NCBI GenBank assembly: GCA_943788165.1
Contig: CALSPF010000002.1
Coordinates: forward strand, 747,890 to 811,889
Direction: 5' to 3'
Origin: an uncultured Flavobacteriaceae bacterium
GTDB lineage: Bacteria; Bacteroidota; Bacteroidia; Flavobacteriales; Flavobacteriaceae
DNA length: 64,000 nucleotides
Shown: piece by piece, positions 2,850 to 56,902 of the stretch
Layout of the letters: each line of letters begins with the position of its first letter
Position numbering within the stretch: position 1 is the first letter of the stretch
Translations under genes and position numbers: made by a program
The notes under the pieces: model-generated
Databases searched by the model: none
Seen by the model: the letters and a program-made list of their open reading frames with translations, nothing else
What the model was told of the DNA's origin: nothing

Positions 2850-2880
2850 TTTGTTTATTTCAATACGGGGCTTAGATTTG
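2850..2880 (+). promoter_or_regulatory. Bacteroidetes-type promoter for the phe/tyr operon (TTTG-N19-TAGATTTG)
   Basis: TTTG at 2850-2853, 19-nt spacer, TAGATTTG at 2873-2880 matching TAnnTTTG; leader ORF starts 18 nt downstream. Confidence 0.7.
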
Positions 2881-2897
2881 TAGTTAATTAGAACAAA

Positions 2898-2966
2898 ATG
2901 AACAACACGTTTTTATATCGCAACACTTTTTTTTACTTCTTTAACGAGGCAGAAAGGACTTTGTAA
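2898..2966 (+). CDS. Phe/Tyr-rich leader peptide of a transcription attenuator: MNNTFLYRNTFFYFFNEAERTL
   Basis: 22-codon ORF with 5 Phe and 2 Tyr (TTT TTT TAC TTC TTT cluster at 2928-2942) directly before the attenuator and pheA. Confidence 0.85.
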   Translation: MNNTFLYRNTFFYFFNEAERTL

Positions 2967-2985
2967 TATATCAACGCAACGATAG

Positions 2986-3020
2986 AAAAAGTCCTGACAT
3001 TTGTTCGGGACTTTTTTTTT
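2986..3020 (+). terminator. Attenuator terminator upstream of pheA
   Basis: AAAAAGTCCTGA-CATTTGT-TCGGGACTTTTT stem followed by a T-run, 10 nt before the pheA ATG. Confidence 0.85.
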
Positions 3021-3030
3021 GGGGTATACT

Positions 3031-3855
3031 ATGGAAACAAAAACAGCAATACAAGGAATTAAAGGGTCATTTCACCATGCCGTGGCGATGAATTATTTTC
3101 ATCAAGGGGTTAAATTGGAGGAATGCCTAAGTTTCGACACCCTAGTTGCTGCTGTCTTAGATGCTAAGGTGCAGCATGCTGTTATGGCCTTGGAAAATTC
3201 AATCGCTGGATCTATAATACCCAATTATGCTTTAATCGATCGGAATGATTTATCAATTATCGGAGAATATAACCTAACCATTCATCATAATTTGATGGCT
3301 TTGGAAGGCCAGTCTATAGCCGATTTAACCGAAGTGCATTCCCATCCGATGGCCCTCTTGCAATGCAAGGCTTTTTTTCAAGCATATCCGCATATTCGTT
3401 TGATTGAAGCGGCCGATACAGCCGATGTTGCACGATCTATTTCTGCCGAAAATCGCAAGGGAATTGGAGCGATTGCACCAAAGCAAGCGGCCGAAATCTA
3501 CGAATTAAACATATTCGCACATTCCATACAAACCATTCAAGATAATGTTACCCGTTTTGTCATCATTCAGAAAAAAAGTGATGTAATTGAGAATAAGCAA
3601 GTCAATAAAGCTTCTTTAAAATTTATTTTAGATCATCAACGGGGAAGTTTGGCAGCTGTACTCAATGTAATGAGTGATTGTCTATTGAACCTAACAAAAA
3701 TACAGTCTCTTCCCGTAATTGAAACACCAGGGAAATATGCCTTTTTTGTTGATGTTACTTTTGATCATTTACATCAGTATGAAAAAGCGCGCAAGATTTT
3801 AGTAATCATGGCATTAGAATTTAAAATCCTTGGAGAATATAACACCGCCAAATGA
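3031..3855 (+). CDS. pheA: Prephenate dehydratase
   Basis: PDT-like sequence (IQGIKGSFHHAVA, NSIAGSI, DNVTRFVII) plus ACT-like C-terminus; ORF track starts at a non-ATG at 3001, ATG at 3031 preferred. Confidence 0.88.
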   Translation: METKTAIQGIKGSFHHAVAMNYFHQGVKLEECLSFDTLVAAVLDAKVQHAVMALENSIAGSIIPNYALIDRNDLSIIGEYNLTIHHNLMALEGQSIADLTEVHSHPMALLQCKAFFQAYPHIRLIEAADTADVARSISAENRKGIGAIAPKQAAEIYELNIFAHSIQTIQDNVTRFVIIQKKSDVIENKQVNKASLKFILDHQRGSLAAVLNVMSDCLLNLTKIQSLPVIETPGKYAFFVDVTFDHLHQYEKARKILVIMALEFKILGEYNTAK

Positions 3856-5009
3856 TGAAAACAACAACCGCAACCCGTCTTGAAAGTGTAAAAGAATACT
3901 ATTTCTCCAAAAAATTGAGAGAAGTAGCTGGGCTTATTCAAGCTGGGAAGCCTGTGCTGAATATGGGGATTGGAAGCCCAGACCTACCACCACATCCGTC
4001 TGTAGTAGAAGCCTTACAGGCAGGTTTGTCTCACCCAAAGGCACATATGTACCAGAGTTATCAAGGCTTACCCGCATTGCGCGAGGCCATGGCAGGCTTT
4101 TATCAGCGAAACTATAATGTTAGCCTCAATCCTTCATCTGACATTCTCCCCCTTATGGGATCCAAAGAAGGGATCATGCATATATCTCTAGCGTTTTTAA
4201 ACAGAGGCGATGAGGTGCTCATTCCCAATCCAGGTTATCCAACCTACAGTTCAGTCACTCAGTTGGTTGAAGCAACACCTGTTTTTTATGCTTTAAGTGG
4301 AGACAACGATTGGCAACCTGATTTTGCTGCTCTTGAAGCCATGGATACCTCTAAGATTAAACTTATGTGGTTGAATTATCCCCATATGCCAACTGGAGCA
4401 ATGGCACAAACAGCCACTTTTACACGTTTAATCAAATGGGCAAAAGACAATGAAATTTTATTGGTTAACGATAACCCTTACAGTTTTATCCTCAATGATT
4501 ATCCACAAAGTGTTTTGTCATTACCAGATGCTAAGGAGGTTTGTATGGAATTAAATTCCTTGAGTAAATCCTTCAATATGGCGGGCTGGCGTGTTGGAAT
4601 ATTGGCGGGGAATCAAGACAACATTCAAGCGGTATTGAAAGTAAAAAGTAATATGGATTCGGGTATGTTTTATGGCATTCAACAAGGAGCCATTGCAGCG
4701 CTTAATACTTCCAACAGTTGGTTCGATGAACTGAATGAGGTGTACCAAAGACGTCGTTCCCTAGTAGAAGAATTGGCTCGTTTAATGCATTCCACTCCCG
4801 ATCCGGATAGTGTAGGTATGTTTGTTTGGGCTAAACTAAATGACAACAGTCTTTCGGCTGAAGAATTCATTGATAATATTTTATACCAGAAAGACATCTT
4901 TATTACGCCAGGAACAATATTTGGAAGTCAAGGAGAAGGCTATATTCGTTTTTCACTCTGCGTTACTGAAGAGCAAATACAAACAGCCATTAATCGAATC
5001 AAAGCATGA
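3852..5009 (+). CDS. Class I/II PLP-dependent aminotransferase (aromatic operon)
   Basis: SLSKSFNMAGWRVG PLP-lysine motif; start overlaps the pheA stop. Confidence 0.88.
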   Translation: MMKTTTATRLESVKEYYFSKKLREVAGLIQAGKPVLNMGIGSPDLPPHPSVVEALQAGLSHPKAHMYQSYQGLPALREAMAGFYQRNYNVSLNPSSDILPLMGSKEGIMHISLAFLNRGDEVLIPNPGYPTYSSVTQLVEATPVFYALSGDNDWQPDFAALEAMDTSKIKLMWLNYPHMPTGAMAQTATFTRLIKWAKDNEILLVNDNPYSFILNDYPQSVLSLPDAKEVCMELNSLSKSFNMAGWRVGILAGNQDNIQAVLKVKSNMDSGMFYGIQQGAIAALNTSNSWFDELNEVYQRRRSLVEELARLMHSTPDPDSVGMFVWAKLNDNSLSAEEFIDNILYQKDIFITPGTIFGSQGEGYIRFSLCVTEEQIQTAINRIKA

Positions 5010-5863
5010 AATTATATGTTATCGGTATCGGATTAATTGGGGGTTCCATGGCCATGGACTTGAAAAAGTGTTATTCGGCTATTGAAGTGATTGGCGTTGA
5101 TACCAACGAAGCTCATTTGGAAGAAGCACTTGCCAGGGGCATTATAGATAAGAAAGGAAGCTTAAAAGACATCGATCAAGCTGACCGAGTGATTCTGAGT
5201 ATACCTGTGAAAGACAGTTTGGCTTTGCTGCCAACATTGTTGGACCAGTTGAATGAAAATGCATTGTTGTGGGATGTAGGTTCAACCAAAGAAGAACTGT
5301 GTAAAGTGGTAGAAACACATCCAAAACGCGACCAATATTTAGCTGCGCATCCCATAGCAGGTACAGAGTTTTCTGGACCAAAGGCTGCTCATGTCGGGTT
5401 GTTTGAAGGGAAACCACAGATTTTATGTGAAACCCATAAAACCCGTCCAGATTTGTTGTCATGGGCCAAAACATCCTTTCGCCAAATGGGCATGTACCTT
5501 CGTTTTATGGAGGCCAATGACCATGATAAACACATGGCCTACGTTTCGCATTTGTCTCACATCAGTTCTTTTATGTTGGGTAAAACAGTACTTGAACAAG
5601 AAGAAGATGAACAAAATATTTTTGACTTAGCCGGTAGTGGTTTTGAATCTACTGTTCGCTTGGCCAAAAGCTCGCCAGACATGTGGGCGCCAATTTTTGA
5701 ACAAAACAAGACCAATGTATTAAGTATTTTATCTTCTTACATTGAGAATTTAGAGAATTTTAAACGCAAATTAGAAAATGATGACATTGCTGATCTGCAC
5801 CAACAAATGAAACATACAAATCAATTAACAACAATCCTTAACGGGATTAAACACAACAATTAG
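5006..5863 (+). CDS. tyrA: Prephenate dehydrogenase
   Basis: GIGLIGGSMAMDL nucleotide-binding motif and HPIAGTEFSGP; ATGA overlap with the previous gene. Confidence 0.88.
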   Translation: MKLYVIGIGLIGGSMAMDLKKCYSAIEVIGVDTNEAHLEEALARGIIDKKGSLKDIDQADRVILSIPVKDSLALLPTLLDQLNENALLWDVGSTKEELCKVVETHPKRDQYLAAHPIAGTEFSGPKAAHVGLFEGKPQILCETHKTRPDLLSWAKTSFRQMGMYLRFMEANDHDKHMAYVSHLSHISSFMLGKTVLEQEEDEQNIFDLAGSGFESTVRLAKSSPDMWAPIFEQNKTNVLSILSSYIENLENFKRKLENDDIADLHQQMKHTNQLTTILNGIKHNN

Positions 5864-5865
5864 TT

Positions 5866-6948
5866 ATGGAGAATACTCCCGCAATGCGCGAATGGTTGAA
5901 CGATTTCGGTCTATCGCATCCCTTAGTTATCGGTGGTCCTTGTAGTGCCGAGACAGAAGAACAAGTCATGAAAATTGCTCATGAATTGAAAGACACTGAT
6001 GTAACAGTATATCGTGCTGGAATTTGGAAACCCAGAACACGCCCGGGTATGTTCGAAGGGGTTGGAGCAATTGGATTAAAATGGCTACAACGCGTGAAGG
6101 AAGAAACGGGAATGTTAACGGCGACTGAAGTAGCCAACAAAGATCATGTTAAGTTAGCGCTGGAGCATGACATCGACATCTTGTGGATTGGTGCCCGTTC
6201 TACTGTAAGTCCATTCATTGTGCAGGAAATTGCTGATGCTTTGGAAGGTACAGACAAGATCGTTTTGGTGAAAAATCCTGTCAATCCAGATGTAGCACTG
6301 TGGTTAGGTGGAGTAGAACGTTTGTATACGGCAAACATTAAGAACTTAGGGTTAATCCACCGCGGATTTTCTGCGTATGGAAAATCAAAATACAGAAACA
6401 ATCCTGAATGGCAAATTGCCGTTGAGGTGCAAAACAGGTTCCCTGACTTACCTTTAATTTGTGATCCTTCTCATATTACAGGGAACAGAGAAATGATTTT
6501 CGATACCTGCCAAATGGCCTTGGACTTAAATTTTGATGGTTTAATGATTGAAAGCCACTGGGATCCAGACAATGCATGGAGTGATGCTGCACAGCAAGTT
6601 ACCCCTGAAAAATTGGTTCAGATTATGTGCGATTTAAAAATTCGCGAAGCAACAACAGATGAGGCTTCATACCAGACTGCTTTACAAAATTTACGTGCAC
6701 AAATAGACATTGCTGATCAGACAATACTAGACACTTTGGGTAATCGCATGAAAGTAGCCGAAGCGATTGGCGAACTCAAGAAAGAAAACAATGTTGCCGT
6801 ATTGCAAAACAAACGTTGGAATGAAATTCTAGGAAAGATGGTTTTGGAAGGTGAAAGCCGTGGTTTATCAGAAGAATTTGTCTTGCGCATGTTCAAGGCG
6901 ATTCATCAAGAATCCATCAATCACCAAGAACAGATTGTAAAAGCATAA
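5866..6948 (+). CDS. Bifunctional 3-deoxy-7-phosphoheptulonate synthase / chorismate mutase
   Basis: GGPCSAETEEQ, AGIWKPRTRPGMFEG, DPSHITGNRE plus C-terminal CM helices (DQTILDTLGNRMKVAEAIGELKKENNVAVLQNKRW). Confidence 0.9.
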   Translation: MENTPAMREWLNDFGLSHPLVIGGPCSAETEEQVMKIAHELKDTDVTVYRAGIWKPRTRPGMFEGVGAIGLKWLQRVKEETGMLTATEVANKDHVKLALEHDIDILWIGARSTVSPFIVQEIADALEGTDKIVLVKNPVNPDVALWLGGVERLYTANIKNLGLIHRGFSAYGKSKYRNNPEWQIAVEVQNRFPDLPLICDPSHITGNREMIFDTCQMALDLNFDGLMIESHWDPDNAWSDAAQQVTPEKLVQIMCDLKIREATTDEASYQTALQNLRAQIDIADQTILDTLGNRMKVAEAIGELKKENNVAVLQNKRWNEILGKMVLEGESRGLSEEFVLRMFKAIHQESINHQEQIVKA

Positions 6949-55380: not shown

Positions 55381-56783
55381 TTATACTTCTTCAGCTAGGG
55401 TTAAGGCTTTGTCCAAGGCCCCTAGTTTATTATAGACTTCTTGCAATTCACTTTCCGGAACAGAATCGGCAACAATGCCTGCCCCTGCTTGATAATGCAA
55501 TTGATGGTTTTTACTTAAAAAAGATCGGATGATGATGGCATGATTGAAAGTTGCCATGAAAATCCATGTAGCCAATGGCGCCGCCATAGACGTTTCTTTT
55601 TGTGGTTTCGTAGCGATCGATGAGTTGAAGGGCATTGTGTTTGGGTGCCCCACTGAGGGTTCCTGCGGGGAAAGTATCGGCCACCACACGGAAGGTTTTA
55701 GCAGCTTCTTTCATGCGACAAGTCACCTTGGAGACCAAGTGAATTACATGGGAGTAAAATTGAATCTCCCGGTTTTTTTCGACCACCACTTCAGATCCGT
55801 TTCGACTTAAATCGTTCCGAGCTAAATCGACCAACATTACATGTTCGCTGTTTTCTTTAGGGTCTTTAGCGAGTTCTTTTGCTGCAATAGCATCTTGTTC
55901 GTCATTCCCTGTTCGTCGAAAGGTTCCTGCGATGGGATGAATCTCTGCTTTTCCTTTTTCTACAATCAATTGGGCTTCAGGGGAACTGCCAAAAATCTTG
56001 AAATCACCATAGTCAAAGAAGAACAAATAAGGCGATGGATTGATGGAACGTAAGGTGCGGTAGACATTGAATTCATCTCCTTTAAATCCTTGCGAGAAAC
56101 GACGGGAAAGAACCAATTGAAAGACGTCACCACGAAAGCAGTGCTGTTTTCCTTTTTTGACAAAATCGATGAATTGATCATCGGTTAAATTCGAGGCTTT
56201 TTCCCCTACTTTTTCAAAGGTAAATTTACTGCTGTTTTTTGCATTTAATAGGCGTTCAATTTCTGGGAGATTGTGTTCTCCGTCATAGACATGTGAAAAT
56301 AAATGCGCCTCATGATTGAACAAGACTAATGGCAATGATGTTTTGATAGACGGCGTAGTAGATGTCGGGTATGTCATGCCCTGGTTTGGCTTTATTGAGT
56401 TGGATGTTCTCAAACTGATCAACTGCATCATGAGCAACATAGCCAAAAATCCCATTACTAATGAATTTAAAAGGAAACGCTTCATTGTCGAATTGCTGTG
56501 AAAATTGATGGATCTTTTCGGGTATATCCACTGTTTCATCTACAATGTCTTCTGTTCTGCTTCCGTCTGGATAAGCGGTTGTTAATTGTCCATTCTTTAG
56601 TTCAATGGAGGCAATTGGTTTGCAACAGATGTAGGAGAAATCATTATTGTTGGCATGATAGTCACTACTTTCCAATAAGAGGGAATGTGGGAAAACATCT
56701 CTTAACTTGAGATACGCACTAACGGGCGTAAGCGTATCGGCTAAGATTTTTTTATGTTCGGTTTGCAGTGCAAATTTTTCCAT
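55381..56783 (-). pseudogene. trpE: Anthranilate synthase component I, disrupted by two +1 frameshifts (or sequence errors)
   Basis: Three overlapping frames (56310-56783, 55511-56539, 55381-55689) together give a full TrpE (DVFQLVLSRRFSQGF, PIAGTFRRTG, LARNDLSRNG, FPAGTLSGAPK, GAIGYMDFHGNF). Confidence 0.85.
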
Positions 56784-56794
56784 CGGCTAAAATT

Positions 56795-56827
56795 AAAAAA
56801 GGCTTGTCGTGATGACAAGCCTTTTTT
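56795..56827 (-). terminator. trp operon attenuator terminator
   Basis: AAAAAAGGCTTGTC-5-nt loop-GACAAGCCTTTTTT perfect stem, just upstream of the trpE ATG. Confidence 0.88.
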
Positions 56828-56848
56828 ATATTGATACAGCGTGTTTCA

Positions 56849-56867
56849 CGAATAGATGTTCTATTCG
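56849..56867 (-). promoter_or_regulatory. trp leader hairpin (regions 1:2)
   Basis: CGAATAGA-ACA-TCTATTCG 8-bp stem overlapping the leader stop codon. Confidence 0.75.
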
Positions 56868-56902
56868 TTCCACCAGTTTGTATTGTTGTTTCTAATTTTC
56901 AT
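56861..56902 (-). CDS. trp leader peptide MKIRNNNTNWWNE (tandem Trp codons)
   Basis: 13-codon ORF with TGG TGG immediately before the leader hairpins and the trp operon; absent from the ORF track. Confidence 0.85.
   Translation of the reverse strand: MKIRNNNTNWWNE

Follow-up and report, generated by a model that had tools for sequence, protein, structure and literature searches.

Known attenuators and the pheA element

Some attenuators were reportedly predicted in Bacteroidetes/Chlorobi by Vitreschak and co-workers in 2004. Literature searches on leader peptides of Bacteroidota otherwise yielded a short comment in one paper (PMC7366714) and the work of Guérin et al. (2021; PMC9723704). The latter reports transcripts whose 5' regions are structured, among them an element before pheA of F. 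psychrophilum that other Flavobacteriaceae share and that has no Rfam hit, as well as strong clues to leader-peptide attenuation ahead of amino acid operons (Guérin et al., 2021; PMC9723704). Its main text does not set out the anatomy of the pheA element, which is, going by the description given there, very probably the same as the one analyzed here in a 64,000-nucleotide stretch of DNA from an uncultured marine Flavobacteriaceae bacterium (the window).

Rfam, applied at gathering score, gave no match in the window or in the loci of ten relatives. The top score below threshold belonged to the Phe_leader model RF01859, aligned over its full length (21.8 bits, E 0.12, cut-off 55), followed by Thr_leader. 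Like the E. coli pheA leader represented by RF01859, the element in the window comprises a leader peptide with Phe codons, regions 1 to 4 and a terminator before pheA; unlike it, the leader adds Tyr codons (and, in relatives, Trp codons), lacks a Shine-Dalgarno sequence, and precedes an operon that includes tyrA and a DAHP synthase/chorismate mutase gene. The Bacteroid-trp family (RF01692; Weinberg et al., 2010) likewise attenuates an operon of an aromatic pathway in Bacteroidota by means of a leader peptide, but it differs in its Trp codons, its near-invariant terminator sequence and its pairing layout. Since no model covers the element at threshold, it could seed a new Rfam family. On the strength of its sequence, we hold with high confidence that the element is a ribosome-mediated transcription attenuator. 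The proposed mechanism is the textbook one and its kind is already known, while the full anatomy, the covariation, the ribosome geometry, the class-wide range and the Trp codons in most leaders of the family are new.

Anatomy of the leader region and its operon

Transcription would start from a promoter with the -33/-7 arrangement of Bacteroidota, in which a TTTG box (positions 2850-2853, plus strand, as are all features of this locus) and TAGATTTG (2873-2880) are separated by a 19-nt spacer; the flavobacterial sigma-A -7 consensus is given as TAnnTTTG in PMC9723704. A generic promoter scan, whose consensus is that of E. coli only, found no match here. The leader ATG lies 17 nt downstream of the -7 box and opens a 22-codon reading frame (2898-2966, TAA stop at 2964-2966) encoding MNNTFLYRNTFFYFFNEAERTL, where the regulatory codons Phe-Phe-Tyr-Phe-Phe (TTT TTT TAC TTC TTT) occupy 2928-2942 and Trp codons number zero. 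That the T8 homopolymer in the leader hides a frame error was ruled out, as both the T8 and the frame recur in the nearest relative, a Flavobacteriaceae MAG with a PheA identity of 83% (L183, leader MNNSFIYRNTFFYFFNEVERTL).

Downstream of the regulatory codons, alternative RNA pairings compete. Region 2, the 5' strand of the antiterminator, has its core AGGACTTT at 2955-2962, starting 15 nt past the first base of the last Phe codon, and is complementary at 8/8 positions to region 3 (AAAGTCCT, 2988-2995), which can pair either with region 2 or, in the terminator, with region 4. The intrinsic terminator (2988-3020) is built from the stem AAAGTCCTGA/TCGGGACTTT (2988-2997 and 3005-3014, loop 2998-3004) and a run of nine T (3012-3020), with the pheA ATG (3031) 10 nt beyond. 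A generic terminator scan found no match at this site, where the T run falls partly within the stem. Minimum-energy folds add a third pairing, the 1:2 hairpin, whose 5' strand (region 1, 2920-2939) consists mostly of the regulatory codons and whose 3' strand (2946-2964) is wider than the region 2 core. The earlier note on this DNA, drawn up from the letters alone, had named the promoter boxes and their spacing, the leader with its Phe/Tyr cluster, the complementary octamers and the terminator, and each was recovered exactly where it had been placed; it had omitted the competing hairpin formed by the Phe/Tyr codons with 2946-2964, and it held nothing on the extent of the element over the family and much of the class, on the F. 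psychrophilum publication or on the Trp codons of relatives.

The fold of the whole leader reaches -33.5 kcal/mol, against -19.4 in shuffles (z -4.5), and 0 of 200 shuffles folded as well. The complementarity of regions 2 and 3 is less distinctive when a single genome is considered, and is then suggestive only, because dinucleotide shuffling of the leader end reaches it in about 1.5% of cases (p about 0.015); its conservation in relatives, described below, makes it certain.

Four tightly packed genes follow the leader, with ATGA overlaps among the first three: pheA, the first structural gene, encoding prephenate dehydratase (3031-3855; PF00800, 1e-53), a class I/II aminotransferase gene overlapping it by ATGA (3852-5009; PF00155), tyrA for prephenate dehydrogenase (5006-5863; NF006307, above its cut-off) and a fusion of DAHP synthase and chorismate mutase (5866-6948; PF00793 and PF01817). 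The products of pheA and tyrA correspond to the residues that the leader would sense. As the second and last PF00793 match in the genome (estimated to be 94.5% complete) is a KDO8P synthase, and PF01474 has zero matches in it, the operon carries the only recognizable DAHP synthase of this genome. No leaders were seen before hisG, ilvD and the homoserine dehydrogenase gene of the same genome, in a search that took the longest ORF of each locus, not always the target gene.

Conservation of the leader and covariation of its pairings

Upstream regions of pheA were compared in 110 genomes of the same family, representing about as many genera; named loci indicate that this family is Flavobacteriaceae. 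In 108 of these 110 genera, pheA follows a leader rich in Phe and Tyr, a strand for the antiterminator and a terminator. The genera share ancestry, so that genus counts are not independent events. Loci from named genomes gave leader and terminator in 78 of 80, a count not independent of the first one since these loci partly repeat its genera. The 108 leaders start with ATG, are 16 to 29 residues long and are composed of Phe (24%) and Tyr (16%) to a large extent. A -33 TTG and a -7 TAnnTTnG spaced by 17-23 nt occur upstream of 78 of the 108 leaders, as compared to 2.4 expected in shuffles. Leader starts share an A at -3 (82%) and at -6 (63%), and a Shine-Dalgarno-like sequence precedes just one of the 108; the same context, A at -3 and -6, favours initiation in F. 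johnsoniae (PMC6847099).

Within the dense aromatic runs of the relatives, 542 codons are TTT or TTC and 289 are TAT or TAC (831 in total), while TTA, TTG, TAA and TAG are all absent; the two stop codons had been excluded beforehand by the way ORFs were found, TTA and TTG had not. Structure alone would allow TTA and TTG, hence their absence indicates that the amino acids are what is conserved. This bears directly on the possibility that a metabolite- or tRNA-binding RNA of the riboswitch or T-box type governs the terminator, the short ORF being incidental. A terminator facing an alternative pairing is the anatomy of such RNAs too, yet a conserved coding frame whose 831 Phe/Tyr codons have only T or C as third base, together with the retention of start context and stop and the lack of any Rfam aptamer or T-box match at gathering score, makes it very improbable.

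The arms of the antiterminator differ from genus to genus with the pairing intact: the window has AGGACTTT/AAAGTCCT, and other genera have CGGGACT/AGTCCCG, CGAGAC/GTCTCG, CGGAAC/GTTCCG or ATCGGGA/TCCCGAT. As a control, each leader end was scored against the arms of other genera, with the register re-optimized every time. With one representative per distinct arm, own arms scored 17.5 vs. 14.9 for swapped ones in the family (z 7.7) and 17.1 vs. 13.1 outside the family (z 7.7); for all sets together z was 11.4, and 0 of 5000 permutations reached the observed fit. The mutual exclusivity of antiterminator and terminator is thus backed by covariation. An ordinary terminator or constitutive brake, with the complementarity of region 2 due to chance or to the leader codons themselves, would agree with the mild significance of that complementarity in a single genome. 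We consider it hardly credible in view of compensatory changes that extend across genera and families even after re-optimization of the register, and of the distance from the last aromatic codon to region 2, which stays near +14 nt. The earlier note had proposed looking in related genomes for conserved Phe/Tyr codons and for covariation of the pairings: both the nearest relative and the 108 genera keep the leader and its codons, and the arms of the antiterminator covary. These two outcomes support its reading of the locus as an attenuator.

The competing folds were likewise followed in the 108 genera. As long as region 4 has yet to be made, 107 of them have the pairing of regions 2 and 3 as their minimum-energy fold. 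The 2:3 segment averages -14.1 kcal/mol and the terminator hairpin -13.4 kcal/mol. In 89 of the 108 genera, the 1:2 hairpin engages 4 nt or more of region 2 in upstream pairing; it is weak in places, with a mean z of -1.1 that is only moderately better than shuffles.

Ribosome geometry and proposed mechanism

A ribosome with a given codon in the A site covers about 12 nt downstream of it. In 102 of the 108 genera region 2 starts +11 to +16 nt from the first base of the last clustered aromatic codon (mode +14), therefore it would be just free when the ribosome stalls there. At least half of region 2 falls between -16 and +11 of the stop, the position of a terminating ribosome, in 106 of the 108 genera, and in 13 of the 108 some or all of it lies beyond the footprint that a ribosome at the stop would have. 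With region 2 free at the stall and covered at the stop, the spacing is the one that a model of stalling and termination requires. In some genera (L028, L035, L015, L009, and L058) the leader has an early stop, and region 2 coincides with it or follows it directly (up to +8 nt), with a distance to the last aromatic codon that is near the usual one or down to +8; the spacing to the stall codons seems to be preserved more closely than that to the stop.

The leader, its codons, the pairings with their covariation and the spacing are read from the sequence itself; from them we infer that the leader is translated, that ribosome and polymerase are coupled and that expression responds to Phe and Tyr. 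Polymerase would initiate shortly upstream of the leader ATG, with a ribosome translating the leader behind it. At low levels of charged Phe-tRNA or Tyr-tRNA, the ribosome is expected to stall on the codons at 2928-2942, and the stall would open the 1:2 hairpin, letting 2955-2962 pair with 2988-2995 and blocking the terminator, so that pheA, the aminotransferase gene, tyrA and the DAHP synthase/chorismate mutase gene could be transcribed. With ample amino acids, the ribosome would reach the stop at 2964 and mask region 2, the terminator would form and transcription would end before pheA; in the absence of a ribosome, the 1:2 hairpin would likewise favour termination. The aromatic amino acid genes of this marine flavobacterium are thus very probably switched on when Phe or Tyr run short.

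The fixed spacing further suggests that polymerase keeps only a short lead over the ribosome on the leader. The element may offer a ready probe of the coupling between transcription and translation in bacteria that do not depend on Shine-Dalgarno sequences, and it indicates that aromatic synthesis in a large and hardly tested bacterial group is usually controlled by classical attenuation.

Range outside the family and Trp codons

Nearly all genera of the family have the switch, as do many further families of the class. Outside the family and inside the class, a candidate leader and terminator were found at 40 of 60 pheA loci assessed. Their leaders are quite different in sequence, e.g., MKLTQTYFWFYPTLSTGG with the arms ACGGGAGG/CCTCCCGT, and most of them have region 2 at +10 to +18, region 2 being doubtful in a handful of the 40. 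About a third of the pheA loci outside the family are without a leader (L119-L123, L126, L128, L132, L137, and others); pheA may sit in another operon there, because in several of these loci the upstream gene appears to run close to it. Beyond the class, a leader precedes pheA in 2 of 7 loci inspected, both with a PheA close to the type of the class.

Trp codons occur in 69 of the 108 family leaders and in 14 of the 40 outside the family. Such frequencies, and the position of the genome's only recognizable DAHP synthase in the operon, could mean that the leader senses Phe, Tyr and Trp jointly and thereby gates that enzyme, which would add to the attenuator model rather than oppose it. Joint sensing nevertheless seems to us rather unlikely, as the leader in the window has no Trp codon, the trp operon has a leader of its own, and in some relatives UGG is itself paired in the 1:2 hairpin (e.g., in the fold of L028), so that the Trp codon may be kept for pairing alone. 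A broader proposal can be put forward tentatively and at less than even confidence: a single ancestral leader may, in much of the class, gate the entry enzyme of aromatic synthesis through joint reading of Phe, Tyr and often Trp, with the fixed geometry of about 14 nt implying close ribosome-polymerase coupling in bacteria that ignore Shine-Dalgarno sequences.

The trp operon leader in the same window

A trp leader (MKIRNNNTNWWNE) with a terminator lies before trpE on the minus strand of the window (56793-56901). The trpE gene itself (55381-56783, minus strand) is split over three frames, with ORFs of 157, 342, and 102 aa, which reflects either indel errors in the assembly or a broken gene. 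The best Rfam match of the trp leader is Bacteroid-trp (RF01692), at 39.1 bits and below the cut-off of 49. At the trp loci of the family, runs of Trp codons and a near-invariant terminator (AGGCTTGTC-n-CACGACAAGC) were present in 30 of 30 examined, and in 29 of the 30 a CGTGA about 19-20 nt past the Trp codons complements a TCACG of the terminator loop region. The trp terminator is nearly fixed in sequence at these loci, while the pheA terminator is variable.
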